Source: Pohlia nutans
Lineage: Eukaryota > Streptophyta > Bryopsida > Bryales > Mniaceae
NCBI GenBank assembly: GCA_022496805.1
Contig: CM040100.1
Location: 18,009,009-18,073,008 of the forward strand
DNA: 64,000 nucleotides
Direction: 5' to 3'
Under the pieces are notes generated by a model, which saw nothing but the letters and a program-made list of their open reading frames with translations, did not search any database and was not told the DNA's origin. The stretch's first letter is position 1. Each line of letters starts with the position of its first letter. This document shows, in pieces, positions 84-60,759 of this stretch. Made by a program: the position numbers and the translations under genes.

Positions 84-672
84 TTAACCCCTAAACATAC
101 CAGGGTGTCCCTGGAATCGACAATTTGAGAAAAATCATCATAAATTACTATTTAGAAGAATATTTTGAAATTGATATACAAATGAAAGTTCTAGATTTTG
201 AATTTTAGATTCCATCCGTACGGTTTGATTCACTAATACTATCACCAATATTTAATTATAAATTTTGAATGTTAAAATTAAAAAATTCCTTCTAAATTCG
301 ATTACAAACAAAATTTTAATATTTTTTGAGTAAAATTTGTTGGAATGAATTTGAAATGAGATACTTAAAAACGTGGTGATTCTTTGAAATTTTTGTGTTT
401 CTTAAATCTATGACCTCATTTTTGCAAGGCCACTTTTGAACTACAGTCAATGCAATTTTGGCTTGGTCAACGACTTGACATACTTCTACATTTGTAATTT
501 TAGAAAAATATGAAATCAAGTATGACTAAATCCAACCGTTAGATAGGAGAACAACTTGGTGAAGAATCTCCAAAAAAATGGATGACTTTCATCCAATCAT
601 TGATGAGAACGTGAGAAGGGTTTGAATCTGTTAGTCGTCCAGTTTCTGGACGCTGTGACGTTTAAGGGTTAA
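84..672. mobile_element. TTAA-flanked MITE (589 bp)
   Basis: Begins TTAACCCCTAAA and ends TTTAAGGGTTAA, so both edges are TTAA followed by CCC or preceded by GGG. A perfect hairpin (CGTCCA, 5-nt loop, TGGACG) lies at 636-652, 20 nt from the right edge. The interior is a diverged relative of the 577-bp family at 13752, 28105 and 58187. No coding capacity. Boundaries are seen directly; piggyBac-like origin is inferred from TTAA and CCC. Confidence 0.75.
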
Positions 673-689
673 AATGGCTTAAAGGGGTA

Positions 690-912
690 TAGTCCGATAT
701 GGATACCACTTTTATGTGTCTCACAATCTCACATAGTGTGACTTATATTTAACTCATTTTATGTGTACTAGAAATTCCGTTTGTAACACTATATATATAG
801 TTGGAGCCATAGTGTCTATAACACCCTCTAATTTTTGTAATTTTCCAATGTTTTTTTCTTACCAAAAAGATATTTCTCGAAAATCACACTATTTTTTGGA
901 GGGGTACCTATA
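690..912. repeat. Dispersed ~225-bp repeat, copy 1
   Basis: Clearly similar to 17375-17600 inside an ATG9 intron: both contain a CACATAGTGTGACTTA-like core, a CTAGAAATTCC block and a GAAAATCACACTATTTTT-like block. The ends of the second copy are weak inverted repeats around GATATGGG(T/C)ACC, suggesting a MITE. No coding potential. Confidence 0.55.
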
Positions 913-1985
913 TCAAGCCATCATTCTAAAGGATAAATTTTGTAAAAATCATATAAAATATATAAAAATAAAAAGACCTGAGAATTAGGTGAAGACCAAA
1001 TTAAATGAAATAAAATTTAGAAAATGTTTCCCGGTTGCATATTTATTAAAAAAGGCTCCACAACATATTTAAAGAATTGAAACACCTATGCATAATAAAA
1101 AAATTCATATGAGAAGTTGTCTCCAATTAAAATTAAAAGTCATTGGCAATGTTTTATTTATAATAAGATAATCTTAAAATTTTATCAAAAAGTCCAAAAA
1201 GTTGGCTAGTTTGGCCTATGCTACATGTATCAAAAAACTCATATAATTAGGTTTTTAATGCTATTATTGTCTTCAAGGAATATTCAATTCCTATATATAA
1301 TTACTTTTTTGGATTCCTTGTCAAAAGGACTATAAAAGCCCGGGTACGCAACTCCCGTATTATATGGCCCTGATTATAATCACTTATAATGCATTTTAGT
1401 CCAATCTCGAGTGATATAATTTGTTTTAATGTAGAAAACTCTTGTAGCCCTTCTAAGTTCTAACAAGGAATCCAAAAATGTAATTATGTATAGGAAGTGA
1501 ATATTTCTTGAAGCATATATTTGCATTAAAAACCTGATTATATGAGTTTTTTTAATACACGTAGCATAGGCCAAACTACCCAACTTTTTGGGCTTTTAAT
1601 AAAATTTTAAGATTTTTTAATCATAAATAAATCATTGCCAATGACTTTTAATTTTAATTGGAGGCAACTACTCGTGTGGATCTTTTAAAATTAGGCATAG
1701 GCAACTTATTGGTCTAACTATTGGGATAGAAAACTACCGATTTGTGTTAGGATACGGTTGAGGTATGTGCTTTGTAAACCATAGGTGTTTAAAAATAGGT
1801 GTTTCAATTCATTGAATGTATATGTTGTGGAGTTTTGTTTTTTAATAAATATGCAACCCAACTTTTTCTACATCTCATTTTATTTAATTTGGTCTTCACC
1901 CAACTTTTTGCTCCTTTTATTTTTGTATTATTTGATATAATTTTTACAAAAGCCATCCTCTAAGCCGTTTTAATACCGATGCCCC
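900..1985. repeat. Large imperfect inverted repeat
   Basis: The left arm (about 900-1340) and right arm (about 1430-1985) are reverse complements with scattered differences. Matching blocks include GGTGAAGACCAAATTAAAT, TTGCATATTTATTAAAAAA, CACAACATAT, CCAATTAAAATTAAAAGTC and TTTGGCCTATGCTAC. The right arm holds about 120 extra bases near 1690-1810. A related GGGAGTTGCGTA end recurs at 1340, 1990 and 2130. Probably a foldback-type element with no ORF. Confidence 0.6.
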
Positions 1986-13751: not shown

Positions 13752-14328
13752 TTAACCCCTAAATGCCTAGAGCCCTCTCCAAATTCGGTAGTTTTGCAAA
13801 GATGCATTATAAAATGCAACCTAGAGGGATATTTTGAACTTGATATATGAATAAAAGTTGTCCATTATGAATTTTAAATTCTATCCATACGGTTAGATCT
13901 ATGATTGCTATTACCAATAATTTTGTATAAAATTTGAAACGTGAAATTCAAAATTATTTTGTAATTCAATTATGAATAAGATATTGACAATCTACGGATG
14001 AATTTTTTTGTGATTGGTTGAAATGTAATACTCTAAGTGTAGTGATTTTTGGAGATTTTTTGGTTGCTTAATTATATGAGTTGACTTTTTTTAGAGCACT
14101 TTTACACTGAAATCTTCATTATTTTGGGTGAATCACTACAACATGAAATGAGGCATAAAAATTTCACAAATCATCCCCTTTCTAATCGGATCACATATGC
14201 ATGATGCTAACTTCCCATAGAATCTACAGTAAAAATTCCACACTGCTAAAAGTGCATGATGGATGAGAAATTATGGATGAAATTTGTACATCGTCCAAAA
14301 AATGGACGCTTAGGCAGTTAAGGGTTAA
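13752..14328. mobile_element. TTAA MITE, 577-bp family, copy 1
   Basis: Edges are TTAACCCCTAAATGCC and GGCAGTTAAGGGTTAA. The perfect hairpin CGTCCA/TGGACG is at 14292-14308, 20 nt from the right edge. It is the same length (577 bp) as copies at 28105-28681 (reverse orientation) and 58187-58763 (reverse). It is AT-rich and has no ORF. The right TTAA is shared with the next element. Confidence 0.85.
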
Positions 14329-15061
14329 CCCCTAAACGCCGCCCAGACCAAAAAATGGCTTATGAATGAAGCTGACTGTTCAATTCCAAGTGCTACGTGG
14401 ATGATTTCCATCCAATTCTTTTGTGAAGGACTTTGCTTGGTCATGCCACCCCTTCAAGTTAAATTCAGATCATTCAAGCTATTTTTAGATTTTACATGGG
14501 GTCCCAACTACCAAAAGAGTCATAAAAACAGTTCACCGTGTAGTGTATTTTGAAATTTTTTGCTTGTTCTGCTTAAACTAAATTTAGACCATGAAAATGA
14601 GTTCCATTGCATTTGAGCTTAACTAACAAAATGAAGCTTGCCACTTCTAATTTCAACTCCACTTTTAATTTCTGAAAAAATTTGAAAATTGAGTGTTTTA
14701 TTGTAGTTACAAGTTCGGTAGGCATTACCAAGGTGTAGCAAAAAAAATCTAAATTTAGATATACAGTTGATTTTCATTAACTAAACTGTTCTTCATTGTG
14801 ATTTGCACCTTTGGTAAAAAAAATCGGAATTTTCTAGTACATTTTGTAATTGATATAGATTTTCTTTACAATCACTTCAAAAAAACCATAGCAATTTCAA
14901 ATTTTCACCAAAATTTATGAAAAAATCATGATTTGTAGGAGACATGTGACTTCATCTACTAAAAATATAAAATTGAATTATTATATTATTTTTAGTCACA
15001 AAATTGAGTGTGACAGATATAGCATGATTCCATGGTCATAGGCCTAACCTTTAGGGGTTAA
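14325..15061. mobile_element. TTAA element abutting the previous one
   Basis: Starts TTAACCCCTAAACGCC and ends TTTAGGGGTTAA, reusing the TTAA at 14325-14328 that closes its neighbour. A decayed hairpin (AGACCA, 5 nt, TGGCTT) sits 20 nt from the left edge at 14345-14361. The interior differs from the 577-bp family. The short ORF inside (63 codons) has no recognisable features. Confidence 0.7.
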
Positions 15062-16648: not shown

Positions 16649-18601
16649 TTAGTATGCATCCCGGGCAAATGGAAATTCCAAACGAGGACCATGAATTCCC
16701 CTCCTTCTCGACATCTCCATCTGCTCTTCACCATCATACAAATCATATTCATTCTCACTTTCAGCAATCATCGCTTGACCTGGAACAAACGTCGGAGGCT
16801 GGAAAAGGCTGTTTTCAGGGTTAGTACTACAACTTGCTGTTGACCTGCCGCGAGCCCACCACCGGCTAGTTTGACAGTCCATGGGCAAATCTGTCACACC
16901 TCCTGGAGGCTCTGTTATATCACCACGGTCCTTGATTGGTAAAGTTCTCTCCTTTGTTACTGTAACCCAGCCTTCACGATCACGCAACAAACGGTCAGCC
17001 TCTTGTGATGATTCATAAAACTTGTCCAGCCAGTACATGTGCTCCGAATTTTCCGCAGCTGGTCCTCGCAGGTCGGTGTAATACGAGCCGGAAGGAGGGA
17101 TGTTCACAATAGTGTGTCCAAAGCTGCTAGAGCGAGTATTAGAAAGTCTAGATAATTTTCCAGACCGTCTGAGTTGAGCAACAGATGAAAACTGCTGACT
17201 CATCATGGATGCATTCTCCTCATTTCGTACACGGAAGTCGGCCAACGTTGACATGAGTTGTTTGCCCTTTCCATCAGGTTCCCAATTGGGATAATTCGTT
17301 TTGAAGCTGCAAGAATTCAAAACAATTCATGATTAGCAAATCCTCCATAGTGGTATGTGCATACATAACTGGGTACTGGCCTCATATGGGTACCGGTGTG
17401 ATGCGTCACACTATGTGTGACTTATGTGTAACTCATGTGCTAGAAATTCCATTTTTAACACCATGTATGCAGCTGCAGCATACCATCTATAACATTATTT
17501 AATTTATGTAATTTTGTAGTTTTTTAGTCTTATAAAAATGATATTTTTTAAAAATCACACTATTTTTGAAGGGGGTGCCCATATCACACCATTGTCCAAT
17601 TGTCACTCTTAACAACTGAGCATAGTTGCTATTGTTAATCACACATTATTATTTATTATTATTCTTATCATTGTTGTTATAGTTGTTGTTATAGTTGGGT
17701 TTGAATGTCAAGTGAAAGAGGATTCCAATGCACTATAGCATGTATTATTTAAGCACCATATGAATAAGTTATGAGTTTTCAAAGTATTGCTTGTAAGTGT
17801 ATCCAAAATTGATCTTAGAAGTTTTCATGTTCTACATGTGTAATCAATATCTACGTTTTAGTGTTGCTTTTGGGTTCAAATGTAGGGGTCGCAAATTAGG
17901 TCCATATATTATGGATGTACATACCTTAATGTAGAAGTGAATATTTTCCATATGGAAGTTGCTCCAATGAACAGCTAAAGTATTATACAATGAAAGTATT
18001 ATACAATGAAAGTCTAGTACCGAAATTTAGTTACAATTTTCTACTATTAATTACGCAGTCGGTGTTACGGTGGCCGGCAGTGTTTACCTTATGAAAGATT
18101 TCTCCATTTTGCCTTGTGTACTGCGTCGGTCCTTCCTCGAATGAAAGGGAGATCCATACTTGGAGTTTCCATGATGCTCAAAGTCGAAGACACTCAAGCT
18201 GCAAATGATGATTGCCATGTCAGTAAGGCAATATACGTAAAATTAATTCTTTGGAAAATTGTTAAAGATCAAAATGCTAAAGAGATTAATTCTAAAGATT
18301 CTTCTTTTTTTACAAAATTTACAGTATGTCTGCTATCATACCATAGCATACCAAACTTGAAATGTATTAATAATAGGTCACTTTGTATAGAAAGGTCAGT
18401 TCCAATAAATACAGACTATAATTTGTTTTTCAAGCCAGACAGTAAGCTCAGGGCTGCAATGTACTAAACATGTACGAGTATACATGAGTGCACAAAAGGG
18501 GTATTAGTTTGAACACTGTCGTATTACGTATACATACAATAAACACATTTAGAACTAAAAGTATTCATGTATACTCGTGACGTTAAACATATATTAAAAC
18601 G

Positions 18602-18641
<40 letters not shown>

Positions 18642-21600
18642 ATATATATATATATGTATATATGTATATATATATATGTATATGTATATATATATATGTA
18701 TACAAAGGTATTTAGACATATAACCTCTCATATACAAGGGGGTTTTTAGTAGGGGTCATGAATGCACTTGATTCTCAAACATAATGTAGAGTGCACCCCC
18801 CGGGACACTAAGAACCCAAATAGCTGTTTGAGCCACAAAAACAATATTGAAAACAATCCTTGTTGAAATCCTAACAAATATAATTATGCCATAATACAAA
18901 CACTAATGAAAAAGGGTTTTGTTTCTGCACTCTTTTTTCAGACACTATTTTCAACACTTTCTAAGTACCAATAAGTCTGTAGTGTTGGCTCCAAAAACAA
19001 TGTTGAAAACAATGTTGAAAAGAGTGTCAAAAACAACACCCTAACCTTTTTTGGTAGTGCCAAACCACTCATTTAGAAGCAGGCTAGTTTGTTCACCTGC
19101 AAACGTGGCCAACACCTTCAATATGAACAGTAAAATCCTCTACAAACTGCAGCACATCGTCTACACACTGTAACACAGCCAAGTATCGTACCAACAGTAA
19201 GTTTCAGAACTTCAGAATCTAAATGTGATCAAATACCTACTAGGCTATACAATCACCATTTGTTCAAACTTAAGCCATGAAAGTCAACAACTACTAAAAG
19301 TCTCCTTATTACATTGTTTAGTTTAGGGTTTAGGGTTTTAGTTTTTGACAATAGCCTTTAGGGCTTGGGGTTTTAGATTTCGACATTAAGATAATTTAGT
19401 TTACCTTTGGCAACGCAAAGATGAGAATGAAGGGTGTCACAAAGATGGACATGATCTCCTCAAAGAATAGAGCTGCTCTATACTGCATGATAAAACAAGT
19501 TCCCGAATTTTAAGGTTAGCTAGAATAAGCACACAGTGAACAAACTTGAATGACCCTTTAGAATTGTATACACTACAAAGAAATGAGACTCCTGTTATAC
19601 TCGCTCCATCCCATATAATTACGTTTTTTTTTCAGATTTTGATTTTGTCCTAAATGAATTAGATGACACCCATTTTCAAATGTTCATAGTGCACAAATTT
19701 CTTGGAGTTAAAAGCGAGCCTAAGTTTGTTTAAATTATTTGTTTCATTTGGTAAAACAGTGAGCAACAAATTAATATTGAGGGTCAACAAATTAGTTGTA
19801 AAATGATATCTTAATTTTTCAAAAGTGAAAGAGCTTTTATTACCTTAAACAGACCCTCAAACTCGCGCTGTACAGTCTCAGTATGTTCGGCACCTCGCCA
19901 ATGTTTAGGCATATAATGGGTATGGCTTGAAATCTGTTGCATGACCCCCTTTGGATCTAAAACCTCATGGTTTTCTATTATGAATTGCCTACACAAGGCC
20001 CAAATTACGAACAACAAGACGGATTGGTACCAGCCTAAGTTGTGGCTTTCAATCTGCCCAATCCCAAAAAAAACAAAAAACAAAAAAACACAAGGTTGTT
20101 AGACTCACAAAGTTTTTAATGGTAGATTAATGTTAACCCCTAAAGGACCGAGGATTCATGATTTTTTTAAATGGAAAATTCAATTATCATATTGTGAAAA
20201 ATAGCCCGGGGTGCACTGTACTAAACACGTACACGTGTACAGAAGGGGTATTAATTTGAACATTGTTGTATTACGTATACATACAATAAACATATTTAGA
20301 GCTGAAAATATTGACGTATGCTTACATTAAATATATATTTAGGACAGAATAGATCTGTATACAAAGGTTTTTAGACACATAACACCTTGTATACATGGCC
20401 AAGGTTTCTAGAAGGGGTCATGAACACACGTGGTCTTTAAACATAATGTAGAGTGCACCCTCCGGGAAAGATAGAATTTAGATGGAACCAAAATTTATAT
20501 CACCAGAATCAACGAATGTGTTGAAAAAATAAGTTTAAACCAAAAAACACTTCAAATGGAACCTATTAGTAGTCAAAAATGCTAAAAAAAAAACATGAGA
20601 CCCAATTTCATCCTTTTGGGGTTAATCTAATAGAAGATTGTGCATAAATAAATACATGTCAAAGTTATGGGAGCTTTGTTTTTTCAAAACATGAATTCTA
20701 TATGGAAGAAAAAGAAATTTGGACAAATTCTTGGAAATCGACATTTGCCTCAATAGATTTTTGTAATTTGGAAAATGAGTGTTGAATTTGCTGCCAATTT
20801 ACAATATTTAAAAACATTAGATCTATATTAAGATAATGTTGAATTAGTGTCAATTTAAATTTGACTTATTTGTTAACTTTCATTACTGGTTTTTAGGGTC
20901 GCTTCACACTATGGTCGAAGGTTGAGAGGCCGTCGATTTCCACCAATTGGATTGCAAGAAACCAAGAGTTCGGCCTCTTGACCCTTCACACTAGAGGCCA
21001 AAGTCCAAAGGCCATCACCCTCCAAAATGCTTACATGGCAACACGTTTTGATCAAGGCGACGGCCTCTCGAAAAAAAGTTTGGGTCGGACGGGAATGGAA
21101 ACCCAAACTATGGTCGAGAGGTCGTCGATTTCTTTTCATAAAAAATAAAAACTATATTTTATTGCCTATTTTCAGTAGATTTCTTTGGACTCTCAACAAA
21201 GTTTGGCCACTCAATCCCACGGCCTCTCAACTTGGATGGCCATAGTGTGAAGTGGCCCTTAGTTTAAAGGTTTATCTTCAAATTGAGCACTATTTCAAAT
21301 TGGTAATTCAACCACCAAAACTGACCAGTGTGTTTGTTAACATCTATTTACAACATTGTGCATTAAATACAACCTTAATTTTTTACTAAAACAAAGTTTG
21401 AATGATTTTAACATCAATTATACCAAAGATACTAACAACATTCTAGTTGAACAAGCTGGGTTGAAAATAGTCACACAAAGCTACCTAAAATCATTTGCTT
21501 TCTAAATAGTAGAAGTGTTAATGATGATTCCAATTACAAAACCAATACCCATATTTAGTAATTTAGAACTACACAAAACCAAAAATCATATTGAGTAATT

Positions 21601-27950: not shown

Positions 27951-28104
27951 CAGGGGGTGCACTCTTTTATGTGTGAGGAATCACGTGAGTGCACAAGAGG
28001 GGGATTAATTTGAACACTACCGTACTATGTATACATACTTTTCACAATATAATCATGAATTCATGGTCCTTTTTGGATTAAGGTTAAGATTCTGACAGAG
28101 GTGC

Positions 28105-31359: not shown

Positions 31360-31702
31360 TTTTTTTGAAACAAATGAATGTTTTATTTCCATTGCGCAAC
31401 AACAAATTACAAACATCACACTATGAACGAAGTAAGCAAGTTTCCATGGTACTCCCTTGAGGATGATTTTTTTGGATTTTTCTTCTTACAATATTTGAAC
31501 TAGACCCAAAGCTCCTAATCATTTCTAACTAAGTGTAACATGAGGCCTAGGAGCAACCTCGTCATGCTCGGGGTTTCTACGAAGCATAAAAATATTAGCC
31601 CTCATGACGTGCATTCGACCAAAATCGAACCGTCGCCCTCTTTGGTGCTAATAAGCACTCCTAAAAAGAACCCACCTCCTGACTATCACCTAGGTAGTTT
31701 AA
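31360..31702 (-). mobile_element. SINE-like repeat, copy 1, with insertion at its 5' part
   Basis: About 340 bp, clearly homologous to 47330-47698. On the - strand the element runs from GGTTC(A/G)AA...CTACCTAGGTGA to an A-rich tail after CATTTGTTTCAAAAA, which is the layout of a plant SINE. A GGTTCGATTTTGGTCGAATG segment resembles a pol III B box. The TTAA element 31699-32127 is inserted at its edge; homology resumes at 32128. Confidence 0.55.
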
Positions 31703-34426: not shown

Positions 34427-35033
34427 TTAACCCCGAAAGGACCAAGGATTCTTAGTTTTAAAATGACAAATTCAATTGTGAAAAATATAATCAAATGGAA
34501 CCAAATTTTATATCACTGGAGAACATTGCATGTGTTTGAATTATGTCAATCCGAGTTAAACTCCACTCTAGAGAAATTTTCAAAGTGGATCACCTCAACA
34601 TTGCCTTAGTGTTATAAAATTTGCTATTTGGAGAAAGTAATGATGCTGCCTCCATCATTTCTTTTGCTTTTTTTGAAGTTCACAATAGATAAACCAACTT
34701 TAACCAATCATGCTAAATTCTAAACTCTAAAAGTTAATATTATAATTTATACAAATTTTCAAAGGTTAATGCTTTTATATTCATTAAAAAAGATCTAAAG
34801 TTATTTTTGGAAGTTTGACCGTATGGATAATTTGTAGAGATGATGCCCTACATTTTGTTTATTGAACCAAACTTCATCAAACATATGGAAGGCACATATT
34901 ATAACACATCTATGTTTTGTCCAATACCCCTTGGGCTTTTAGGGGTTAAACCAAAAAAACTCCAAATAGGACTACTCAAAAATTCTAAAACAACATGAGG
35001 CCCAATTTGGACTTTTTGGTTCTTTAGGGTTAA
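34427..35033. mobile_element. TTAA element (607 bp) downstream of mTERF
   Basis: Edges TTAACCCCGAAAGGACC and TCTTTAGGGTTAA. Related to 20133-20625 and 41299-41511. A partial stem (AGGCC/GGACT) lies 20 nt from the right edge. Confidence 0.7.
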
Positions 35034-37965: not shown

Positions 37966-40900
37966 ATGGCGGCCTGCACCGGCGCTGCAGTCCGAGCTCT
38001 GCTCGCAGCTCATCCTCCAGGCACGCGAGCAAACTCCTCTTTGCAGTGCAGCTTTTCTGCGGTGAGTTCTCACCGCTTTGCTCACTTTTGAATGCGAATT
38101 CCAAGTGATACTCCCATTTTCCGAGCTCTAGTGGCCATGTTCTTTGCAAGCACTCGGCGCGAGGGTGTGTTTTCAGGGCTTCGGGTTTGAAACCGCAGAG
38201 ACAATGTCTTGAAAAGATTCCTCAGCTTCTACAGTAGAAGCCCTGAGTTAGGTCAGAATTTTGCTTCGAAGGGTGGAGCCTCGAACCGCAGTCCGGGGAG
38301 AAATTTTATTTTAACCATCTAGGATCCTACATTTTCTTGGACCAACAGGATTTCTGGAGCATTATCTCGGCTAGGCCTTAAGAGAACACGGAATATCAGT
38401 TTTTTTTCCTAAGATTTTGAACTTGATTAGGCAATTCTGAATTTCAACCGGCTCATCTGTAACTAACTAAAGGTCGGTTCTCCCCGGACATTGCCTCGAA
38501 CTACAGTAGGATTTAAGGCTCTAGAGCTGAAAGATAACACAATTCCGGTCAATAAGCAGGATTAAGAGTTATTGATAATTTTTGATGGTAGTTTAAGGCT
38601 CTTATATTTAAGGGGATAGGTTTCTAGGGTTTCAGGCTTGAGACGGTGCGTAAGTAATCCCCTGGAAAAAATTAGAAGACGCCTCGGCTTCTACAGTAGA
38701 AGTCCTTAGAGGTTAGGTCAGCATTTTGCTTCAAAGGGTGTGCAATTGCTGAGCCTCTAACCAAAATAGGATGGAAGGACCTAGAGCTGAACGACAACAA
38801 TAATCAGGATGAACACTTGTTGATAAATTCTGTAGCTGAGCGAAGGTATTTTAAGGTTCTCATTTTCAAAGAGTTTCAGAGTAGGTCTTTGAGTATGTGT
38901 GTTGCAAGTCGCATGGTTCATAATTTTTTTAAAGCACTTTCTTTTCACTTCTTTATTTTCTTTCTGTTTCGACCATCACATGTAATGTCCTTCATTGATA
39001 AGATTTGGCCTCATCTGAATTATACTCCCTCCGTTTCATAATACCCTCCGTTTCATAATAAGAGTCCAAAACCACATATTTTTTTGCGTCAATTTAAGAG
39101 TCCACATTCATTGTGTTGCCTTCCTACATTGATTCCTACTCATTCATTGTGACTCCTACTCATTCATTGTGTTGCCTTCCTACATTGCCTTCCTACATTG
39201 ACTTCCTACATTTTTCATCCCTTTCCATCGAGACACACGGTTCAAAAAGTTGCCATTGTGTTTTCATCCCTTTCAACAGGGCCCGCAACAGGGCTCTATT
39301 TCCATCTTAAATCTCAATTTTTTCTGCAAAGTGGACTCTTACTATGAAACGGAGGGAGTATTTTATATGATATGATCGATGGTCATTCTAAAACCATGAA
39401 ATAAGGAGTTGAGGAAGTATTTAAGTCTAATGCGTGATGAGTCTTGAATTACACGTGATTTCTCAGTATTTACTTTTTTCTATATTGTGTATATGCAGGT
39501 CACAAAAGCTTTTTTGTTAAAATCCAGTTCTAATTTGAGAGACCACAATCATCTGCACAGCAGTGTCTATTTCAGTAGAAGATGCAGGGCGGAGGCGCAG
39601 CCTGAGGTGAATAGTCCGACTGCCCAACCCAACTCCGTGTCATCACCGAAATTCGTGAACTCCGTTGTAGAAGGACCACCGGATTCAGAGCATGGGAATG
39701 TGCTCGTGGGTGAGGACGCGGCTGTTTTCGACGTGGAAGCACAAAAGACGTCGTCATGGATCTACTTCACTTTGGTTCTTGGAGTTGTCATGGCGGTTCT
39801 GTATTATATATGGCTTGATCCAAACACTGGCTACGGGGGAGCTTTTATTGATGCCCTCTCCTCTCTTTCCAGTAACCATGAGGTGAGCTAGGCTACCGGT
39901 TGAATCACAAACTGGCCTTTCTTTGATGTTTCCGTTAACCCCTAAGCGTCCACTGTGTATTTTCTGTAGTGTAGGAAAATTGGACCCCCTGCTGCAAATC
40001 ATCTGTTTGTGTGAAAATGATTTTAAGTTTGACACAATCGACACTGTTGTTCTTGTAGTATAGAACAAGAGTTTTAAAACGATGTATTGCAATCAGAAAA
40101 CCGAGGTAAAATGAGAAAATGCCACCGTTGCAAAGTTCAGTCATGCAGATGGCCATATTGGGCGTTTTAGACGCTCGGGGGTTGAGTTTCTTCTTCTTTT
40201 GATCATTTCTTCTTACAGGAGAGGGTCACAACGTTATCTCAGCTTAGGCCTTGAACGAACATTGATGGTTCTTAGTCATAAACACGCACGCTTTTGCAGT
40301 TGAAGCACTTGTACTCTGAAAACCGTTAGAACTGTCAATCCATGTTCTCAGAATGCTTGGAAAATTAGTCGTGCGTTGTTGGACGGGATTTGGGGCGCTG
40401 AGTTTTCTTAACGTAGCTGACCATTTGTATATTTGATAACGGCGTTTTCGTTGAATGCAGGTCGTGATGTTAGCCATTCTAGTTGTTTTTGCTCTAGTAC
40501 ACAGTGGTTTGGCTGGTCTGCGTGCGCAAGGCGAGAAGCTGGTGGGTGAACGAGCATACAGAGTCCTTTTTGCAGGAATTTCACTGCCCTTGGCAGTTTC
40601 TGCTGTGGTATGGCTCAGACTCGCTTGTCCTGTTTTGTGCAGAGTTAAACTGCATTTTCAGCTAAATGTCTAGTCTGCAGTTACACTGATGTTTGTGCAC
40701 ACTGAAATAGCCAGCTCTCTGCGAATATTTAAGTTGTAAAGTATAGTATCTTCAATCTTTACCTGTATTATCATGGTGTAACACTCTCACCACATCGTGT
40801 GCTTGTATTGGTCAGGTCTACTTCATCAACCATCGATACGATGGTGTGCAGCTCTGGCAAGTTCGAACCATTCCTGGTGTTCACGAAGCGGTCTGGGTAC

Positions 40901-41941
40901 TCTCCTTCATCTCCTTCTTGTTTCTGTATCCGTCGACTTTCAACCTTTTGGAAGTTGCAGCAGTGGACAAACCAAAAGTTCACATGTGGGAGACTGGTAT
41001 CATGCGTATTACCAGACACCCTCAAGTAAGTTGCGTCCATTTCCAATTTGTTATTTTCACTCCTTTCAGCATTCAGCTATTCGATCATGTGCCTAAGTGT
41101 CTCAAACTACTTCCCTCACGTTAACCCCTAAAGTGTCCAATGTAAAAATAGAAAGCACACTTCGGAAGCTATTACTCGATTATAGAACGTATATCTATCG
41201 TTCAAAGATGACATGATTTCTTTTTCTATTGCTTTATTGTACTATCTTCCTAAATGATTTACTGCAACTCCTATAGTGGCCACTTTTGGTCATCAGGTGT
41301 AACCCTCAAAAGTCCAAGGATTCATGACATTCAATCGATCAGTATTTTTCAGATGGGACCAAATTTTATGTCGTCAAAATCAGTGAAGATCATTGCATGT
41401 GTTGGTCCGAAAATTAAAATTAAAAATTAAACAAAAGCAACTCCACATAGGACCTACTCAAAAATGATTCAAAAAGGCCGAATTTGGGCTTCTTGGTCCT
41501 TTAGGGGTTAAAATGAACATGAACTCTTGTTTTAACAACCTTCACCTGAATGAGGTTATGATTGTCTGTTTGGGTGAACTAAGCTGATGAAACGGTTCAT
41601 GGCAGATGGTGGGGCAGTTTATCTGGTGCCTGGCGCACACCGTGTGGATAGGAAACTCCTTCACGTTGACAACATCGTTGGGGTTACTAGCTCATCACTT
41701 GTTTGGTGTTTGGCATGGAGACAAACGCTTGGCAGACAAATATGGGGATGCCTTCGAGCGAGTAAAGGAGCGGACGAGTGTCATTCCCTTTGCGGCTATT
41801 TTAGACGGCCGTCAGAAGTTGCCTGACGATTATTACAAGGAGTTTCTCAGGGTACCATATTACGTCATAGTGGTGTTTACACTTGGTGCTTATTTCTCTC
41901 ATCCTTTGATGCAGATGGGTAGCCATATCCTCCACTGGTAG
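37966..41941 (+). CDS. Z-ISO: 15-cis-zeta-carotene isomerase (Z-ISO), 5 exons
   Basis: Z-ISO converts the 15-cis bond of tri-cis-zeta-carotene to trans in the plastid, between phytoene desaturase and zeta-carotene desaturase. Exons 37966-38061, 39499-39882, 40461-40607, 40816-41025 and 41606-41941 all join in phase 0 with GT-AG introns and give 390 aa, near the usual plant length. The first ~110 residues are Ser/Arg-rich, as expected of a chloroplast transit peptide. The NnrU/Z-ISO integral-membrane core follows: [10 protein letters not shown] (His174), [14 protein letters not shown] (His277), [35 protein letters not shown], and the ending [13 protein letters not shown]. The family binds heme b through conserved His residues; His174 and His277 are the natural candidates here. 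Introns carry TTAA and Stowaway elements, but the reading frame is intact. Confidence 0.95.
38180..38890. repeat. Tandem duplication within Z-ISO intron 1
   Basis: The block from about 38180 to 38600 recurs, shortened and diverged, at about 38620-38890. Shared pieces are CAGGGCTTCGGG/GGTTTCAGGC, CTTCTACAGTAGAAG (a palindrome), GTTAGGTCAG, TTTTGCTTC(A/G)AAGGGTG and CTAGAGCTGAA. It lies within the intron and does not affect coding. Confidence 0.55.
39025..39358. mobile_element. Stowaway MITE in Z-ISO intron 1
   Basis: Ends CTCCCTCCGTTTCATAAT and ATGAAACGGAGGGAG are flanked by TA on both sides, the Tc1/mariner-type Stowaway signature. The left end is partly duplicated (39025-39060). Second copy at 48095-48319. 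Confidence 0.85.
39935..40185. mobile_element. TTAA element in Z-ISO intron 2 (251 bp)
   Basis: Left edge TTAACCCCTAAGCGTCC. The right edge GACGCTCGGGGGTTGA has TTAA mutated to TTGA. A stem of ATGGCC with GGGCGT (one mismatch, one wobble) and a 5-nt loop lies at 40149-40165, 20 nt from the right edge. Confidence 0.65.
41121..41302. mobile_element. Probable small TTAA element, Z-ISO intron 4
   Basis: Starts TTAACCCCTAAAGTGTCC. The right boundary is inferred at the mutated GTAA (41299-41302) where the next element begins. The right end is not clear. Confidence 0.4.
41299..41511. mobile_element. TTAA element, Z-ISO intron 4
   Basis: Starts GTAACCCTCAAAAGTCC and ends CCTTTAGGGGTTAA. It matches the outer parts of 34427-35033 and 20133-20625. 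A 5-bp stem (AGGCC/GGCTT) is 20 nt from the right edge. Confidence 0.6.
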
Positions 41942-44907: not shown

Positions 44908-45493
44908 TTAATCCCTAAATGCCCACATCCCTCTCCAGATTCGGTAGATTTGCAACGATGCATTACAAAATGCAACCAAGAGGGATATTTTGAACTTGAT
45001 GTATGACTAAATGTTGTACATTATGAATTTTAGATTCTATCCATGCGGTTAGATCTATGATTGCTATCACCAATATTTTGTATAAATTTTGAAACTTAAA
45101 ATTCAAAATTATTTTGTAATTCGATTACGAACAAGATATTGACAATCCGTAGATGAAATTTGTTGTGATGGGTTGAAATGTAATACTCTAAGTGTTATGA
45201 TTTTTGGAGATTTTTTGGTTCTTTGATTCTATGAGTTGACTTTCTCAAGAGCACTTTTGAACTATTTTGAACTAAGATTTTAGAATTTTTTGGTGAATCG
45301 ATGCAAAATGAAATGAGGCATAAAAATTTCACAAATCGTCCCCTTTCTAATCAAATAACACATGCATGAAGCTAACTTCCCGTAAAACCTATAGTAAAAA
45401 TTCCACAGTACAAGAAGTGCATGACGGATGAGAAAAATTAGATGAAATTTTCACATCATCCAAAAAACGAACGCCTTGGCAGCTAAGGGTTAA
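44908..45493. mobile_element. TTAA MITE, diverged 577-bp family member
   Basis: Edges TTAATCCCTAAATGCCC and GGCAGCTAAGGGTTAA. Same orientation as the copy at 13752. The hairpin position (45457-45473) has decayed to CATCCA/CGAACG. Confidence 0.75.
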
Positions 45494-47284
45494 GATAGGT
45501 TGTTTGTTTTGTTACGTTAAGATCTTCCCAACCGTACATCCCCTAGTCGCAATATTGGTACTTTCGGGTGCACAGAGTTCGTTTCATCGCATTTGGAATG
45601 TAAAAGTTATAGATTTTCAATCGAATTTTGTCACCATAAATTGAATTAAATTGTGGATATATATTATTCTAAAATGAAAAAGAAAAATAAGAGCATGGGA
45701 AACACGGGAATGAAAGGGTACATAAGGACATGGGGAATACGGGGAGCATAAGGAGCATGGGGGACATGTGGAACACAGGGAACATTTAGGCCAATGGCAC
45801 AGGGCCACACTAGTTAGAGGTGAAATTCAATTTCCAAACCTACTCAAATGAAATAACCATTAACTATAAAGTGGTTCAAAATCATCATATAAACACACTG
45901 GTACAATTCTTTTTAATAAATATCTTTGATGTGTCCAAAAATGGCTTTGAAATGTCAAGAAGGAACCTTAAACATGACCCATTAGACCCAAAAAGCAAAA
46001 AGTGTCCAAAATAGACATATGCATTAAAATGATTTCCAAACATTTAGAGCAACTTGGATTGACATGATTTTTATTTTTTTTATGATAACTAGACTTCAAG
46101 GGGAATTTAACCCAATAATGTTTATTGCAAACGAACATTGGATGAAGGAGAAACAAGCCCCCTAAGTTGCAACCATCAAAATGCACTTTATTGAACCAAA
46201 ATTAAGACCCATGCACTAAAATGATTCCCCAAAATTCATTTGATCTTAAATTGATCTGAAATGTTTATCACACAAACTGAACATTGAGACGCAGGTCTTT
46301 GGAAAGTTTCATTGGAATTAAACACTTTATGCAAAAGTTACAGTTCTTCGAAGGTAAAAGCAACCCAAAAACGTCCAAAATATGGACGTCGGGACAGTTA
46401 AGGGTTAATTAATCCAAGTATCTTTTTCAAGGTCTCTTAAAAACTATTGTTCCTAATCTCTATAGTGTCTAACCTCAAAGAGGGGGGACTAGTCCAACAC
46501 CACTAATCCTTTGTCATGTGGACATTGTATCAAGAGAGGGTCAAATAGACACTTTATTCACGTCAGCCTCGATAGAGGATTGGAATTCTTCTCCTTAATC
46601 AAAAACATGTTTTTTTAGGTAACACAGCATATGTTAGAGCATTTCCACTAGCACTTTGGATACCGCTCTAGCTATGGAAAAATGAATGAGACTGGGTTGG
46701 TGAACAATTTATTTGGCCCGTGATACTGGATAATCCACTAAAAATCAGGGCCCTCAAAATCACTCTTGCTGGTGTATCTCCTCTTCTTCATTGCATATCA
46801 TAATTGCACAATCCATGCGTGGTGACTTGTGAGTGGCTCACTTACTATTTTCAAGAGTCTAATTCAGTGATGTTGGTGGGGGAACTACATGGTGAGGTCT
46901 AACTTTTTGGATGACCTTCAAAGTGCAATCCAGAGTGCTAGTGGAGATGCTCTTACAAAAGAACCATTGTGTGGCACTTATTCCAACATAGTGGAATATG
47001 AGTGGTCCAATTTTATTTTTTTAAACCCTGATCAAAAGCTTCCCGTTGGCATACATCCATCATTTTTGAAACACAGCATTCAAAAAGGATGCATTTATTC
47101 AGGTGGATAGGAAATAACTGAATGATGAGGACATTGACGATGGGTATGATAAAATCCTATTGTCTGCACGCCATCATTTTTAATTTTTTAATTTTTCTTT
47201 TTCCTGTGAAGGCTTCAGTTTGTCCCATACTGTGGCCTGTCAGCTTTCAATCCATGAAAAACTCCAGCACCGTACCCACATAGC
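45494..47284. other. Repeat remnants, no gene seen
   Basis: A TTAA-element right end with a perfect hairpin is present at 46372-46408. Its left end is not clear (a TTAACCC at about 46105 is a weak candidate). 45680-45790 holds short GGGA(A/C)ACA(T/C)GGG-like repeats. Confidence 0.45.
46372..46408. mobile_element. Right end of a TTAA element with hairpin
   Basis: The hairpin CGTCCA, AAATA, TGGACG at 46372-46388 is followed after 16 nt by the terminal TTAA (46405-46408, GTTAAGGGTTAA). The spacing is identical to complete elements elsewhere in the window. Confidence 0.65.
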
Positions 47285-49813: not shown

Positions 49814-49816
49814 TTA

Positions 49817-50294: not shown

Positions 50295-50993
50295 TTAACC
50301 CTTAAGTGTCAAATTAAGCTCCACGGTCTTAGTTATGAGAGAATAATGGGGAAAAAAGAAAAGATTTTGTGAACCAAAATAGGAAAGAATTGGGGGAAGC
50401 TATAGTCGGGCAGCAGCTGATTTGCTTTGAGTTGCGGCACTTTTTGTTTTTCAATGTGCTATAACATTCAATAGCCTTCCAAGAGGCTGCCTTTTAGTTT
50501 CATCCACCTTTATATATGGAGTGACCAATGCTTTGTAATTGAATGGACTATTGAATCAAATAAACAATTACAAAACACTATTGAGTTGTGATTGAGTGAG
50601 TGCTTTCGATTACTGTTCACCTTGGTTGATTGATCTTGCTTAATGCCACATGCCCCCATAGCTACTAATGTGATGTGGAATATTCCACATCATTCTATTG
50701 GGGGAAGGCAATAGTCACAAAGGCTACTGAATGTTATGGCGCCTGCCTGGCGCTGTTGAGGCGAGCGGAATTTTTTTTTAAAATACAAAAATGGGCATGC
50801 CTAGCCCTGCAGTTGCCATGTGGTAACTGCTCCACGTGGCAACTGCTCTGGGCCTACAGCGGAAGGAGTCTAGGACAGTTGCGGGGTTTTTTTTTTTTTT
50901 TTTCTTTTTAATATTTGAAGTAGAATGCTCGATGCGGTAGAATTTTGGAGATCCTCTTCGGGTTGCCCTTTCAAGGACCCTTTTGACGTTTAA
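50295..50993. mobile_element. TTAA element related to 31699-32127
   Basis: Left edge TTAACCCTTAAGTGTCAA, right edge TTTTGACGTTTAA. A decayed hairpin TAAGCT/GTCTTA with a CCACG loop is at 50315-50331, 20 nt from the left edge. The right TTAA is shared with the next element. Confidence 0.7.
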
Positions 50994-51564
50994 TCCCTAA
51001 TTGCCCAACCATGCATTTTTTTTGCTTGATGTATAAAAGCAAATTCATATTCTCATCCGTCATGCACTTTTTGCAATGTGGAATTGTTTTTGAATTTTTA
51101 TTGGAAGTTAGCTTCAGGCATGAGTGATCCAATTAGAAAGGGGATGATTTGTGAAATTTTCATGCCTCATTTCATGTTGCATTGATTCACCAAAAAAATC
51201 TAAGATTTTAGTCTAAATGTGCTCTTGAAAAAATAAACTCATAAAATTAAGCAACAAAAAATATCCAAAAATCCCTACACTTAGAGTATTACATTTCAAC
51301 CCATCATAACAAATTTCATTCACAAATTGTCAATATCTTATTTGTAATCAAATTACAAAAGAATGTTGAATTTTAAGTCTCAAACTTTATATAAAAATGT
51401 AGGTGATAGCAATCGCAGATTGAACCGTATGGACAGAATCTAAAATCCATAATGTACAACTTTTATTCATACATCAAGTTCAAAATCTCCCTCTTAGTTG
51501 CATTTTACAATGTATCTTTGAAAAATTGTTGAATATGGGGAAGGGTGAGGAGGTTTAGGGGTAA
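50990..51564. mobile_element. TTAA MITE, 577-bp family, decayed copy (reverse)
   Basis: Starts TTAATCCCTAATTGCCC and ends TTTAGGGGTAAA. The hairpin site at 51010 begins CATGCA but carries a small insertion in the loop. Confidence 0.7.
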
Positions 51565-51619
51565 AGGACGTTTGACAGTTAAAGATTGACTCTTAAACAT
51601 TAAAGTAAGCCCCATTAAG

Positions 51620-51965
51620 GATATTGTGATTTTCAGAAAAACAACAGAATTGGTTTATGTTAGGTTTCATTTTTAGTTCAAAAAGTGAGATTTAAACATG
51701 ATTTTCCAAAATAAGTAAAATCAAATAATGGAAACATACCATCTCATAGTGCATGTTATTCCAATTTCATTAGAATATTTTTTAATTTTTTGTGTTAATT
51801 TGGGATTTTTAGTTGAATTTCAAGAGATAACCTTCCGAACTTTAATTAAAAAATATGATGAATCCAGCCATACAGATGTGATCTTCAATCACATTGGCAT
51901 TTACAACTTAGATTTGTACATCAACTCTATTTCGTTTTTCATCAAACATTTGAGTAAACCGAAAA
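51620..51965. mobile_element. Truncated copy of the 548-bp TTAA family
   Basis: Matches the middle of 52556-53103 (ATATTGTGATTTT, GTTCAAAAAGTGAGA, AAATAATGGAAA, CATACAGATGTGATCT blocks) but lacks proper ends. The 100-codon ORF here is an accident of this repeat. Confidence 0.6.
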
Positions 51966-52555
51966 CAGAAGAGGAGTTGAAGAGGAGTTTCCTCTCTATA
52001 ATTATATTTTCTGACAATCATTGTTTATGAATAGTTTTCATAGTCGGGGCTCTTGGCTTGGGGAAGCGTGCGGGAACTCTCCTCTAGCATTGGAGAGGTC
52101 AGGAGTTCCACACCCTGTGGTGGCGCATGGCCTTGCTTCAGGTTATTCTCCAACTCACTATCGACTAGTTTTGCAGTCATTTTGAACTCAAAACGAGTCT
52201 GAGGTGAATTTAAGGTTTTTTTCCACTTTGAGACGCTCTTTTCGGTTAACTCTAAATGTCCTAATGCTACATTGTTATCCAAATTTTTTCGATTTTTGTG
52301 ATGTTTTCTATTTTTATGTTTAATATGTTGACCCAAAAGGAAGAATCTTATTGACAAACTGTTCCGCTGCCTAAACCTACTTTGCAAGTCACATTTTTCT
52401 GATAGGATTCTAAGCCGTGCAATAATAGAGTTGCTGGTATAGTGCACATCACGGCAGGCTCAAAGCCATTTCAAGGGTTTGTTTTTATTTTTTATTTTTT
52501 ATTTATTTTTATTTTTATGACCCACACAAGCCGCAGCAAGGAACAGGTTAACCCT

Positions 52556-53103
52556 TTAACCCTTTAACGCGCCTGCATCCATATAATGGACAACGAACAG
52601 ATTGAAATCCTTCTCTTTACTACATCCTGTACAGTTTTTCATCCATCCAAAATTTCCTTGGTTCTTGTGCTAGTTGACTACCATTTGTACGGTATGGATC
52701 TTCAAAATAAGATATTGTGATTTTTTGAAAAATAACAATAGTGGTTGATGTCAAGTTTCATTCTTAGTTCAAAAAGTGAGACCTTCAACACGATTTTCCA
52801 AAATAAGTAGAATCAAATAATGGAAAGCATACCATCTCGTAGTGCATGTTATTTCAAATTCATTACAACAATTTTTAATTTTTTTGTGTTACTTTGGGAT
52901 TTTTAATTGAATTTCAAAAGAAAACCTTGAAAAAATAATTTAAAAAAATTACTAAAAAATATGATAAATCCAACCATACAGATGTGATCTAAACATTGAC
53001 ATTTACAACTTTGCTTTGTACATCAACTCCATTTTTGGTATTCATCAAACATTTTATAACGGATCTTTGAAATCAGTGATGAATCGGGACGTTGAAGGGT
53101 TAA
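52556..53103. mobile_element. TTAA MITE, 548-bp family, copy 1
   Basis: Edges TTAACCCTTTAACGC and GTTGAAGGGTTAA. Exactly the same length as 60212-60759, which is its reverse complement in layout. The hairpin at 52576-52592 is decayed (CATCCA/TGGACA). Confidence 0.8.
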
Positions 53104-53507
53104 CGTCCCCTTTCAACATTTGTTTTAATGAATTTAGAAGCATTATCGTTGAATATTCATCAAAATTACAAATTTTATTTTTAGAATTTTAAATTTAGTA
53201 TCATTGGTAAGAACTAGACATTCTATTTAAAAAGTTTAAAATCAATTTTTTCAAAGGAGACAACATCATTAATTTCCTCAAATAGTAAATTTTATAACAC
53301 TAGGACAATATAATGGTCTTTGTCTTTGAAAATATCTCCTAGTGGAGTTTTACTCGGATTGACATAATTCAAATTGGATTGGGAAGTAATCTTGATTTCC
53401 TATTTGAAATATTTTTTATTTTTTAGAAATATATTTTTTTCATCTTGGGCAACCCGTAAAAAAAGGGTAGCAATCATAAAATGGTCGTTTGGTCACTAAG
53501 GGGTTAA
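53100..53507. mobile_element. TTAA element sharing a boundary with its neighbour
   Basis: Begins at the TTAA that ends the previous element and closes with CACTAAGGGGTTAA. A hairpin, CAATCA, 5 nt, TGGTCG (one mismatch, one wobble), is at 53471-53487, 20 nt from the right edge. The interior is related to 34427-35033 in reverse. Confidence 0.6.
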
Positions 53508-55168: not shown

Positions 55169-55744
55169 CTAATTAGACAATAGATGTCCAGTTGAAAAAT
55201 ACTGTCGGGCGTGACAACCCTGGTTGGATTCCGATACGAAAGACGGGGGTGATGTAAAAGAGTTCCCAGCGATGGAAGGCCTGCTGTACAGGAGATTGGC
55301 AAACTCAGCAACTACAAGTGAGACGTGCAGGTCCTGCACTGTCTGTCTAACAAAACAAATGCCGCGTCAATGGCATGTGTAGTCATGGCAGGATTGGGAA
55401 TTCAGTACAGTACTAAGCTTAACCCATAAAGGAGGTTGCCCTTGTTCATGTGGTGCGCATACAGGGAAGAACATTCGAATACAGGTGGCGTTTGCTGTAG
55501 CATAACGTGTTCTATGGGGCCAATTTTTTTTTGTCAACCTTATAAGAACTACAAGAAATGTTGCTGTAAAATATTCAGAATTTTTTCTTGTGCGGAAGAT
55601 CGTAAAAGAATTTCATGTAGTGAGAGACAGTAGAACACATTAAGGTTGTTGCATGCATTAGGGGTTAACTATAGTTGTCTCACCAGGAATTTGCTGCCAC
55701 CAAAACATCCTGCTGAAACCCTCTTCTAAGGTAGAAGCACCCAT
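55169..55744 (-). CDS. Hypothetical two-exon small protein (67 aa)
   Basis: Exon 1 55684-55744 (the open frame extends upstream to an acceptor at 55769) and exon 2 55169-55311 join as CCTG|GTGAGA...TTGTAG|TT in matching phase. The product starts MGASTLEEGFSRMFWWQQIP and ends CHARQYFSTGHLLSN. The Arg-rich stretch ending in QYFSTG resembles the end of a plant mitochondrial presequence. It is therefore perhaps the first exons of a gene whose body is lost, or a captured fragment. A TTAA element (55419-55668) sits in the intron. Family unknown. Confidence 0.28.
55419..55668. mobile_element. TTAA element (250 bp)
   Basis: Edges TTAACCCATAAAGG and GCATTAGGGGTTAA. I find no clear hairpin 20 nt from either end. 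Confidence 0.6.
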
Positions 55745-56498: not shown

Positions 56499-56499
56499 T

Positions 56500-58186: not shown

Positions 58187-58763
58187 TTAACCCCTAACCG
58201 CCCAACCATGCATATTTTGCATGATGTACGGATTTGAACTCCGATTTCTCATCCATCATGCACTTTTTGCAGTGTGGATTTTTTTACTAAAACTTTTATG
58301 GGAAGTTAGCTTCGTGCATGTGTGATCCGATTAGAAAGGGGATGATTTGTGAACATTTTATGCCTCGTTTCATGTTGTAGCGTTCCATTCAAAATTTTGA
58401 AGATTTTAGTCTAAAAGTGCTCTTGAAAAAGTCAACTACTAAAATTAAGCAACCAAAAAATCTCCAAAAATCACTATATATAGAGTATTACATTTCAACC
58501 CATCCCAAAAATTTTCATTATTAGATTGTCAATATCTTATTCGGAATCATATTACTAAAGAGCTCTAAATTTTAAGTTTGAAATTGAATACACAAATATT
58601 GGTGATAGCAATCGCAAATCTAACTGTATGGATAGAATCTAAAATTCATAATGTACAACTTTTATTCATTCATAAAGTTGAAAATATCCCTCTTAGTTGC
58701 ATTTTATAATGCATCTTTGAAAAACTGCCAAATCTGAAAAGGATGAGAACGTTTAGGGGTTAA
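58187..58763. mobile_element. TTAA MITE, 577-bp family, copy 3 (reverse)
   Basis: Edges TTAACCCCTAACCGCCC and GTTTAGGGGTTAA. The hairpin at 58207-58223 is CATGCA, TATTT, TGCATG: both arms are changed relative to the CGTCCA/TGGACG of the sister copies, yet pairing is perfect. Confidence 0.85.
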
Positions 58764-60211
58764 GAGATAAAGAGTTTATTTTATTGATGAGGGAGTTAAA
58801 TTTATGAGCAAAGGAAAGGGGTCCTAACTACTCTATTCAAGAATGTTATGAAGGTATCTATAAGGTATAAGAGATTACGATTTCAAACTCTCCTTCAATG
58901 TTTGCACTAAGGGGACAAATTTTCACCCTAATCTAATGTGGTACATGATACGCCAAGTGGAATACATGCTAAACTCTTGAAGGTTATATTTTACCCTTTA
59001 GTTATAATCTTTGAAACATCCATATGTTGAAAGGAAATAATGAAGGAATTTAAACCAAGGAGGAAGGTGGGATCTTTATACTTGTCATTTATCCCTTGAA
59101 GGTTATATTTTTTCTCTTTATATGAACAAACTCTCAACTTGGAGGGCAATATCTAACCTTAGACTACTAGAAAGGACATGCAAATCTATCACTCCTCATT
59201 GGCTTGGAAGTTTTTGCCTTTGTCTTGTTTTGCTGCGCTGTGGGATTTGGATGCAACGACTTGAATGGAGGACCTTGACCCGACCATAGAATCGCCCAAC
59301 AAGGCCGTTGATTGGTCAATGGGGGAAGGGAGAATGGACCAGTCTCGCATGGGAAGATCCTGCATGTGAGCCAGGTTTGACGAGCTATGCATATATTGAT
59401 CTCTTTGCCGTGTTAGCGTTGTGCTACATATTTAATCGAATATTTCCAAATACACCCTAAGTTTCTGTTGGAAAGAACTAGTTTGAACTGGGCTTGAGAT
59501 GCTCTAAACACATAAACCTCCTGAGAAACCACCCTTTTTGTACAACAATTTTGAAGTCACTTTATTTGTGTCACTATGTATTAATAATGTACATATCACA
59601 AAATTTTAAATGTAAGACACTTATATATAGTAATTACAAAGTGACACACATAATCACATTGCACAAATATGGTGGTTTACCTTATACACTACTCTAGTGC
59701 ATGGACAAAAACTCCATTTATTTATTTATTTTTTAAATCATGTAAAGGACAATAAATTTAAGTACAGAAATTGACATTGTGACGGGAATCTTCAAACCTT
59801 GTGCATTCAAAGATGCTCTTATAATATGCAATCAATTCATCAAAATAAATGTGAAGTTGTAGGGGAGTAAATTCAATGCTCTGAGTGCTATGGATTCCAT
59901 TACTTTCAACTGTATTTCAACTAATGCCCATGATCTCTGACATATTGCTGTACTCAATACGCACACACTTGGCATGTCATTCCATGTTAGAATTTAAGGT
60001 AAATCACTCTATTTTGCCATGTGACTATTCGCATGTGGAGCAAGGAAATATGTGTTATTTCGATTTCAACACAACACTATACATATTGTTTGGATTTCTA
60101 ACACAATGAAAAATATAGTAGAGATGTGCTCATAAAGACCCATTCTCAATAAAATGCATTGTCTATTACGCAGTTTCACTTCAAATTTGATGAAATTACA
60201 CTTTTAGAATG
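58764..60211. other. Intergenic, no gene supported
   Basis: 59189-59392 on the - strand has a 67-codon frame (starting MHSSSNLAHMQDLPMRDW) with higher GC than its surroundings. No family recognised; it may be a transposon or gene scrap. Confidence 0.35.
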
Positions 60212-60759
60212 TTAACCCTTTAACGTCCCAATCCATCACTGATTTCAAAGATGTGTTATAAAATGTTTGATGATTCACAAAAATGGAGTGGATATACAAA
60301 CAATGGTTGTAAATCTCAATGTGGAGATCACATCTGTACGATTGGATTTATCAAAAAAATTATTAATATTTTTAAATTAGTTTTGCAAGGTTTTCTTTTG
60401 AAATTCAATTAAAAATCCCAAATTAACAAATTTTTATTGAAATTTTTTGTTACGAATTTGGAATAACATGCACTATGTGATGGTATAATTTCCATTATTT
60501 GATTCTACTTATTTTGGAAAATCATATTTAAGATCTCACTTTTTGAACTAAGAATGAAACTTGACATAAACCAATTCTGTGGATTTTCAAAAAATCACAA
60601 GATCTTATTTTGAAGATCCATACCGTACAAATGATAGTCAACTAGCTCAAGAACCAAGAGAATTTTGAATGGATGAAAAATTGTCGCTAGCTACAAAAAT
60701 GCAGCAACTGAAATTCATCCGGCGTCCACATTCTGGACGCAAGCGCGTTAAAGGGTTAA
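60212..60759. mobile_element. TTAA MITE, 548-bp family, copy 2 (reverse)
   Basis: Edges TTAACCCTTTAACGTCCC and GCGCGTTAAAGGGTTAA. The perfect hairpin CGTCCA/TGGACG at 60723-60739 is 20 nt from the right edge. Confidence 0.85.

Follow-up and report, generated by a model that had tools for sequence, protein, structure and literature searches.

Which transposase moves a set of short elements ending in TTAACCC and GGGTTAA, and what is the palindromic slot that lies at a fixed depth inside one of their ends? The question is raised by 64,000 nucleotides of the moss Pohlia nutans (contig CM040100.1, positions 18,009,009 to 18,073,008), hereafter called the window. Here, the original prediction had described TTAA-bounded elements with a 17-nt stem-loop slot (6-5-6) and had pointed to piggyBac, a superfamily best known from insects and mammals. 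The analyses presented here indicate that the window elements are almost certainly non-autonomous piggyBac-superfamily transposons, comprising miniature inverted-repeat transposable elements (MITEs) and longer derivatives, whose movement depends on piggyBac transposases from other loci of the genome and which carry the slot as a palindromic binding site.

Common ends and the position of the slot

TTAACCC occurred 17 times and GGGTTAA 19 times in the window, giving 36 ends; in 30 sequences simulated with a second-order Markov model there were 6.9 on average and never more than 12. This bears out the shared TTAA-CCC...GGG-TTAA termini of the original prediction. The thirteen slots that it had placed 20 nt from an edge were all recovered, each inside a TTAACCC edge (TCAACCC for the slot at 40149). 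Recomputation gave perfect 6-5-6 stems at 636, 14292, 28125, 31719, 46372, 58207 and 60723, while the slots at 14345, 40149, 50315, 52576 and 53471 kept 4 of 6 Watson-Crick pairs and that at 45457 kept 3 of 6. Counting inward from the TTAA, a perfect stem was present at offset 20 in 7 of the 36 ends; elsewhere between offsets 7 and 109, one perfect stem was found at each of 68, 69, 72, 73, 77 and 84 and none at any other offset, and the background across the window was 0.00077 perfect stems per position. When 18 elements were each represented by their better end and scores were averaged within families, offset 20 reached 48.1, compared with a mean of 24.8 (sd 4.2, maximum 37.6) at the other offsets. 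The seven perfect stems represent fewer than seven independent lineages, because three of them belong to the five-copy family A, whose CGTCCA..TGGACG arms recur in B, C and E. Three distinct perfect palindromes (CGTCCA, CATGCA and CAAGCC) were present in the window. An Rfam scan of the window returned no family at its gathering score. Repeated half-sites were also considered as extra binding sites and rejected, since the enrichment of CGTCCA in the elements (11 inside, 7 outside) was mostly ascribed to the slots themselves.

A filled slot is found at just one end of the element. In the 12 elements tested, left ends had 1 to 6 slot pairs and right ends 0 to 3; the left ends with 1 and 3 pairs were the decayed copies A5 and A3, and the right end of element L was read into its C1 insert. 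The claim that the hairpin occurs at one end only therefore stands for the slot and fails for palindromes at large, as A and B have other-end palindromes near bp 55 and bp 20, respectively. Regarding the tips, bp 4 was T in 16, C in 18 and A in 2 of the 36 ends, whose CCC was fixed by the search, and the commonest letters at bp 5-10 were T, A, A, A, C and G. In 16 elements the two ends were compared over 16 tip positions and agreed at 8-14 of them, a count that includes the defining CCC. The terminal inverted repeats (TIRs) of piggyBac elements are short (12-19 bp) and their tip reads CC[C/T]T, and a CCCCT family has also been counted (PMC2872659, a coral paper). The strict CC[C/T]T motif appeared in 16 of the 36 window ends, and the short TIR with this tip, by which the superfamily is recognised, is present in the window elements.

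The position of the slot was also determined beyond the window. A flank sample of 84 kb around family A copies, taken at 28 further loci of this genome (2 of the 30 loci lay in the window and were dropped), contained 68 strict TTAACCC ends. At offset 20, 14 of them had at least 5 pairs and 8 were perfect, compared with at most 3 and 1 (at offset 40) for the other offsets from 7 to 59. An initial covariation count on 12 hand-picked left ends gave 93.1% of cells paired and a score of 0.619 against 0.222 in shuffles; this set was biased, with rows picked as palindromic-looking and A5, F, H and J excluded, and the later samples were made to remove that bias. Clustering blind to the slot yielded 104 representatives of 189 ends and later 116 of 210, loci L001-L008, L009 and L031 being omitted from both. 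Among the 104 representatives, the symmetry axis lay at bp 25.0, where the Watson-Crick excess was 0.965 compared with a mean of -0.033 (sd 0.136, maximum 0.318) for other centres, and none of 2000 permutations reached this value. Perfect stems were found in 10 of these 104 at offset 20 versus 1 of 4888 at other offsets, and many stems were imperfect. With the 116 representatives, the six pairs joining bp 17-22 to bp 28-33 had z values of 2.4-5.4, whereas eight of nine other pairs tested had z values of 0.3-1.6 and the ninth, bp 13 with bp 37, had 2.5. A palindrome at bp 17-33 centred on bp 25 is thus a property of the left ends across the population. Perfect slots were carried by 42 of the 210 ends and comprised 9 different palindromes; CGTCCA accounted for 28 of the 42, many of these being family A copies fetched by similarity. 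The centre was 75% A/T and the arms 38% in 19 high-stem representatives, compared with 58% and 55% in 63 low-stem ones.

In Trichoplusia ni piggyBac, a dimer of the transposase cysteine-rich domain (CRD) binds a palindromic repeat at bp 17-33 of one left end (Chen et al. 2020, PMC7351741); with the TTAA counted, this equals an offset of 20 and a length of 17 nt. Because the strongly co-varying pairs all fall in bp 17-33, the footprint of the CRD dimer, the hairpin is probably best read as a double-stranded palindromic site. The idea that the ends plus hairpin are what a transposase recognises is in this sense supported as an interpretation, with a CRD-dimer palindrome in place of the hairpin. 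Could the palindrome instead act as a folded single strand of DNA or RNA, for instance in replication, transcription or small-RNA production, its position beside the end being secondary? Perfect 6-bp stems with 5-nt loops would suit such a role, and covariation alone does not distinguish it from a dimer site. We nevertheless consider it very improbable, given that the strong pairs end at the limits of the known CRD footprint, that the centre of high-stem representatives is A/T-rich, like a bent CRD site, and that the palindrome adjoins the terminal repeat of a single end. A slightly smaller chance is given to mutation bias (quasi-palindrome correction by template switching) producing palindromes without function. 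Paired changes inside one family, CGTCCA..TGGACG versus CATGCA..TGCATG in copies about 83% identical, would fit this explanation; however, correction should not be limited to one offset from the TTAA, and the perfect stems of the flank sample were confined to offset 20 apart from the single one at 40.

TTAA duplication and resident transposases

Excising C1 (52556-53103) plus one TTAA from element L restores TTAACCCTTTAACGTCCC, identical at 18 of 18 positions to the right-end tip of C2. This nested insertion shows a 4-bp TTAA duplication directly, at one insertion. TTAA was present at both ends in four of the five family A copies in the window (the right end of A5 is TTTA) and, by exact pattern, in 28 of 30 fetched family A copies. 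At the right tip of element K (window 50940-51010; GACGT/TTAA), A5 has perhaps inserted into the inner TTAA of the terminal repeat; on the far side of this junction the tip of K is not restored. At four of the 28 family A loci outside the window (L016, L023, L030 and L035), a second TTAACCC end and the copy have one TTAA in common, which by a hand estimate is roughly the level of chance insertion.

The genome searched for transposases comprised 697,796,988 bases in 332 contigs, with the window within contig C16. From 1305 candidates, at least 116 scored matches to PF13843 (DDE_Tnp_1_7, the piggyBac transposase domain) were obtained; those listed fall on contigs C1-C22, and by hand count 78 of the 116 rows had no stop inside the match. 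The same search gave matches in none of 14 control genomes. Ten loci (L039-L048) were read with their flanks, 7.7-8.5 kb each, and TTAACCC/GGGTTAA ends bracketed nine of them, with spans of 5.0-6.0 kb. The DDD catalytic triad (T. ni D268/D346/D447) was all D in nine of the ten proteins, and a C-terminal Cys/His cluster was aligned in all ten. The remaining protein, L046, has Asn at the D268 position in an open frame of 1139 aa, and may be inactive or repurposed. Pfam matched DDE_Tnp_1_7 in all four proteins given to it and no zinc-ribbon model. The core identity of the ten proteins was 24-28% to T. ni piggyBac and 21-26% to piggyBat, and a PDB sequence search with one transposase found piggyBat and T. 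ni piggyBac (9c0f and 6x67). A piggyBac domain between such ends, the triad and a C-terminal cysteine-rich domain are therefore all found in this genome. The search that the original prediction had proposed for a DDD transposase flanked by the same ends was in this way successful, and the partner proved to be piggyBac and no other superfamily.

Sola3 is also a TTAA-using superfamily, and PIF/Harbinger elements make 3-bp TAA/TTA duplications. Membership of Kolobok, Sola3 or PIF/Harbinger is barely conceivable, since, although Kolobok likewise duplicates TTAA, its termini are 5'-RR..YY-3' (PMC9587614) whereas those found here are CCC..GGG, the nested insertion fits a 4-bp TTAA duplication, and the genes enclosed by these ends have piggyBac transposases as their matches, which already refutes other superfamilies for the nine elements that contain such a gene.

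The left slots of the nine bracketed elements had 1-4 of 6 strict pairs; in one of them, AGGCTC.AAATT.GCGCCC, six of eight pairs were marked by eye about the same centre. For 20 further loci, the reading covered one stretch at the left end and another at the C terminus, and the candidate end was assigned by its distance from the transposase. Altogether, 22 of the 30 loci gave 27 left-end candidates, of which 6 had at least 5 pairs at offset 20 and 4 were perfect, compared with at most 2 and 1 for the other offsets (8-55).

Several window families resemble these elements at their left ends. Family A (A1, A4 and A5) is 77-80% identical to the bracketed L044 over 99-110 bp, G is 84% identical to the bracketed L041 over 45 bp and H (41511) is 87% identical to the bracketed L048 over 31 bp. 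With left-end candidates, D matches L051 (86% over 35 bp) and L matches L059 and L085 (77-79% over 62 bp). For K, E, I and J, none of the transposase loci read gave a match. The pairing of families with transposases is inferred, as is any current activity. In one clade of transposases, L042, L044 and L047 have cores 74-95% identical, and L055 and L065 were placed by their CRD. The slots in this clade read CATGCA..CGCTTG, CACCCG..TGCTCG, CATGCA..TGCATG and CAGGCG..GGCCTG. As a lead, the variety within this clade suggests a quick turnover of the palindromic address.

By analogy with its relatives, a transposase dimer would recognise, at each end, TTAA-CCC together with the first ~13-16 bp, and the CRD dimer, as structures of relatives suggest, would hold the palindrome of the left end. 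The element would then be cut out and inserted at a TTAA, which is duplicated. The palindrome would thus serve as a double-stranded CRD-dimer site at the left end and not as a working hairpin.

A number of results weigh against this reading. The covariation fits a protein-bound palindrome and a strand hairpin alike. None of the nine fully bracketed transposase elements has a perfect 6-5-6 stem, and many transposase elements have imperfect slots, with 1-2 of 6 pairs in L039, L044, L045 and L049. Distance alone ties the four perfect candidates (L051, L055, L059 and L085) to their transposases, and neighbouring MITEs supply some of the 27 candidate tips (e.g. at L073, L077 and L079). No TTAACCC ends were found in the flanks read at L043, and 8 of the 30 loci had no left-end candidate in the stretch read. 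In the window itself, the T. ni and piggyBat cores detected no transposase remnant below E 0.1 (tblastn and phmmer), nor did a profile of 120 piggyBac proteins match any open frame of at least 30 aa below that value.

Element families of the window

All-against-all comparison and alignment grouped the elements into A, B, C, D/K and F1/F2/H, with E, G, I, J and L as singles. The interiors had been described as unrelated; this holds in part, as A and B are ~70% alike inside, C is a pair and F1, F2 and H share ends. Family A comprises copies of 576-586 bp, ~79-95% identical. A1 (13752-14328, minus strand, 577 bp, left end at 14328) has TTAA on both sides and a perfect slot at 14292-14308, and is ~95% identical to A2 (28105-28681, plus, 577 bp, left end at 28105; perfect slot 28125-28141). 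The family is numerous, with copies ~95% identical to A2 on other contigs; 40 copies, A2 included, were scored from 6129 first-look candidates. A3 (44908-45493, minus) is 84.8% identical to A1 end to end and has a decayed slot with 3 of 6 pairs at 45457-45473. A4 (58187-58763, plus, 577 bp) is 83% identical to A1 and A2 and carries a perfect slot at 58207-58223, whereas A5 (50990-51565, plus), 81% identical to A1 and A4 end to end, has a decayed slot with two extra T's in the loop. The slot is CGTCCA..TGGACG in A1-A3 and CATGCA..TGCATG in A4 and A5, that is, two paired changes between copies ~83% identical. The right ends of A1-A4 (13752, 28681, 44908 and 58763) carry a second palindrome, TGCATTATAAAATGCA, which is the one near bp 55. 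The right-end palindrome of T. ni piggyBac lies 31 bp inside the 3' terminal repeat (PMC3459987), a similar depth.

The B element (84-672, minus, 589 bp, left end at 672) has a perfect slot at 636-652, besides the additional palindrome of its other end. In family C, C1 (52556-53103, plus, 548 bp) sits inside the tip of element L and is 83% identical end to end to C2 (60212-60759, minus, 548 bp, left end at 60759), which has a perfect slot at 60723-60739; a fragment without ends (51620-51951, plus) is 83% identical to C1 156-499. The D element (31699-32127, plus, 429 bp) presents the perfect slot CAAGCC..GGCTTG at 31719-31735, and element K (50295-50993, plus) has a D-like left end, 80% identical over ~85 nt, a slot with 4 of 6 pairs and a right boundary that is tentative with A5 at its tip. 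The left end of element E (46372-46408, minus), 84% identical to A over 37 nt, has a perfect slot at 46372-46388, and its other end is uncertain, perhaps at 46107. Element G (14325-15061, plus, 737 bp), with 4 of 6 pairs at 14345-14361, has the TTAA at 14325-14328 in common with A1. Element L (52548-53507, minus, left end at 53507), used above for the empty-site test, is 412 bp long without its C1 insert.

The F-type elements F1 (20133-20625), F2 (34427-35033) and H (41121-41511), all on the minus strand, have common ends, and H has GCCCAAATTCGGC centred on bp 25 of its 41511 end. F1 holds a nested repeat of ~260 bp (about 20205-20466) with G+C-rich ends, CCCGGGGTGCACT.../...GTGCACCCTCCGGG, which is not piggyBac-like; related stretches lie at 18451-18805, 61253-61354, 61668-61883 and 27989-28038. 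Element J (39935-40185, minus) has its decayed tip TCAACCC at 40185 and a slot with 4 of 6 pairs at 40149-40165, while the possible element I (55419-55668) is a weak case, consisting of a TTAACCC/GGGTTAA pair only. The genes of the window encode WRC-domain, mTERF and ATG9 proteins. The mTERF gene (32500-34164) is split over two open frames (32500-33414 and 33661-34164), either by an intron or by a break.

Known piggyBac systems and plant hosts

The slot geometry and the asymmetry are already published piggyBac architecture, because reports on T. ni piggyBac, MER85 and piggyBat match them. Like the moss elements, T. ni piggyBac duplicates TTAA and has, after the terminal repeat of its left end, a 17-bp palindrome occupying bp 17-33, bound in its case by a CRD dimer. 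Unlike them, it has the same palindrome at both ends, deeper on the right, whereas the moss slot is filled at one end and by many different palindromes, besides the low core identity given above. In piggyBat of Myotis lucifugus, palindromes occur on the left end only (PMC11707139), and its CRD layout, C..C..C..C..H.G.CF...H, is like that of the L042-L044 proteins; it differs in having three left-end palindromes and in the distance of its core. In human MER85 the only palindrome, GTTCCA..TGGAAC, lies 3 bp inward of the 5' TIR and is bound by PGBD3, and the T. ni parallel was noted in that report (PMC3459987). These MITEs share the single palindrome at this depth with the moss elements, but MER85 is a single family that stopped spreading about 35 Mya, while the moss has many families and many open transposase frames. 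The coral CMITEs (PMC2872659) are also piggyBac-type MITEs with TTAA and CCC tips; they are ~100 bp long and from an animal, and the word palindrome is absent from the available text of that paper.

Among plants, a MITE survey of 207 genomes sorts the elements into five main superfamilies that do not include piggyBac (PMC12550479); therefore, such plant elements could be filed elsewhere. The statement that piggyBac is not often described from land plants is reasonable without being absolute. A C-fern repeat table gives 1230 PiggyBac copies, a review names PiggyBac as one of seven angiosperm MITE superfamilies and another paper lists it among the superfamilies present in all groups studied, so that the view of piggyBac as unknown in plants was discarded. 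In literature searches on piggyBac native to plants, the matches listed included no paper on moss piggyBac elements. The available text of the P. nutans genome paper (698.20 Mb, 22 chromosomes; PMC9247546) contains no occurrence of piggyBac, and in our piggyBac protein search the organisms named among the best 120 of 1183 hits were animals.

What is new is the abundance of piggyBac in a plant host and the presence of nine different perfect palindromes in one slot. We tentatively propose, at somewhat less than an even chance, a piggyBac radiation in one plant genome in which the palindromic address is exchanged within a fixed 17-bp slot while the rest drifts slowly, the transposase CRDs co-diversifying and each MITE family being tuned to one CRD. 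If this were true, address exchange would provide a natural library for the CRD-to-DNA recognition code and a route for MITEs to switch transposases. The many open-frame transposases together with the nine palindromes are material for the study of DNA recognition by piggyBac CRDs and for the search for new piggyBac tools already resident in plant cells.

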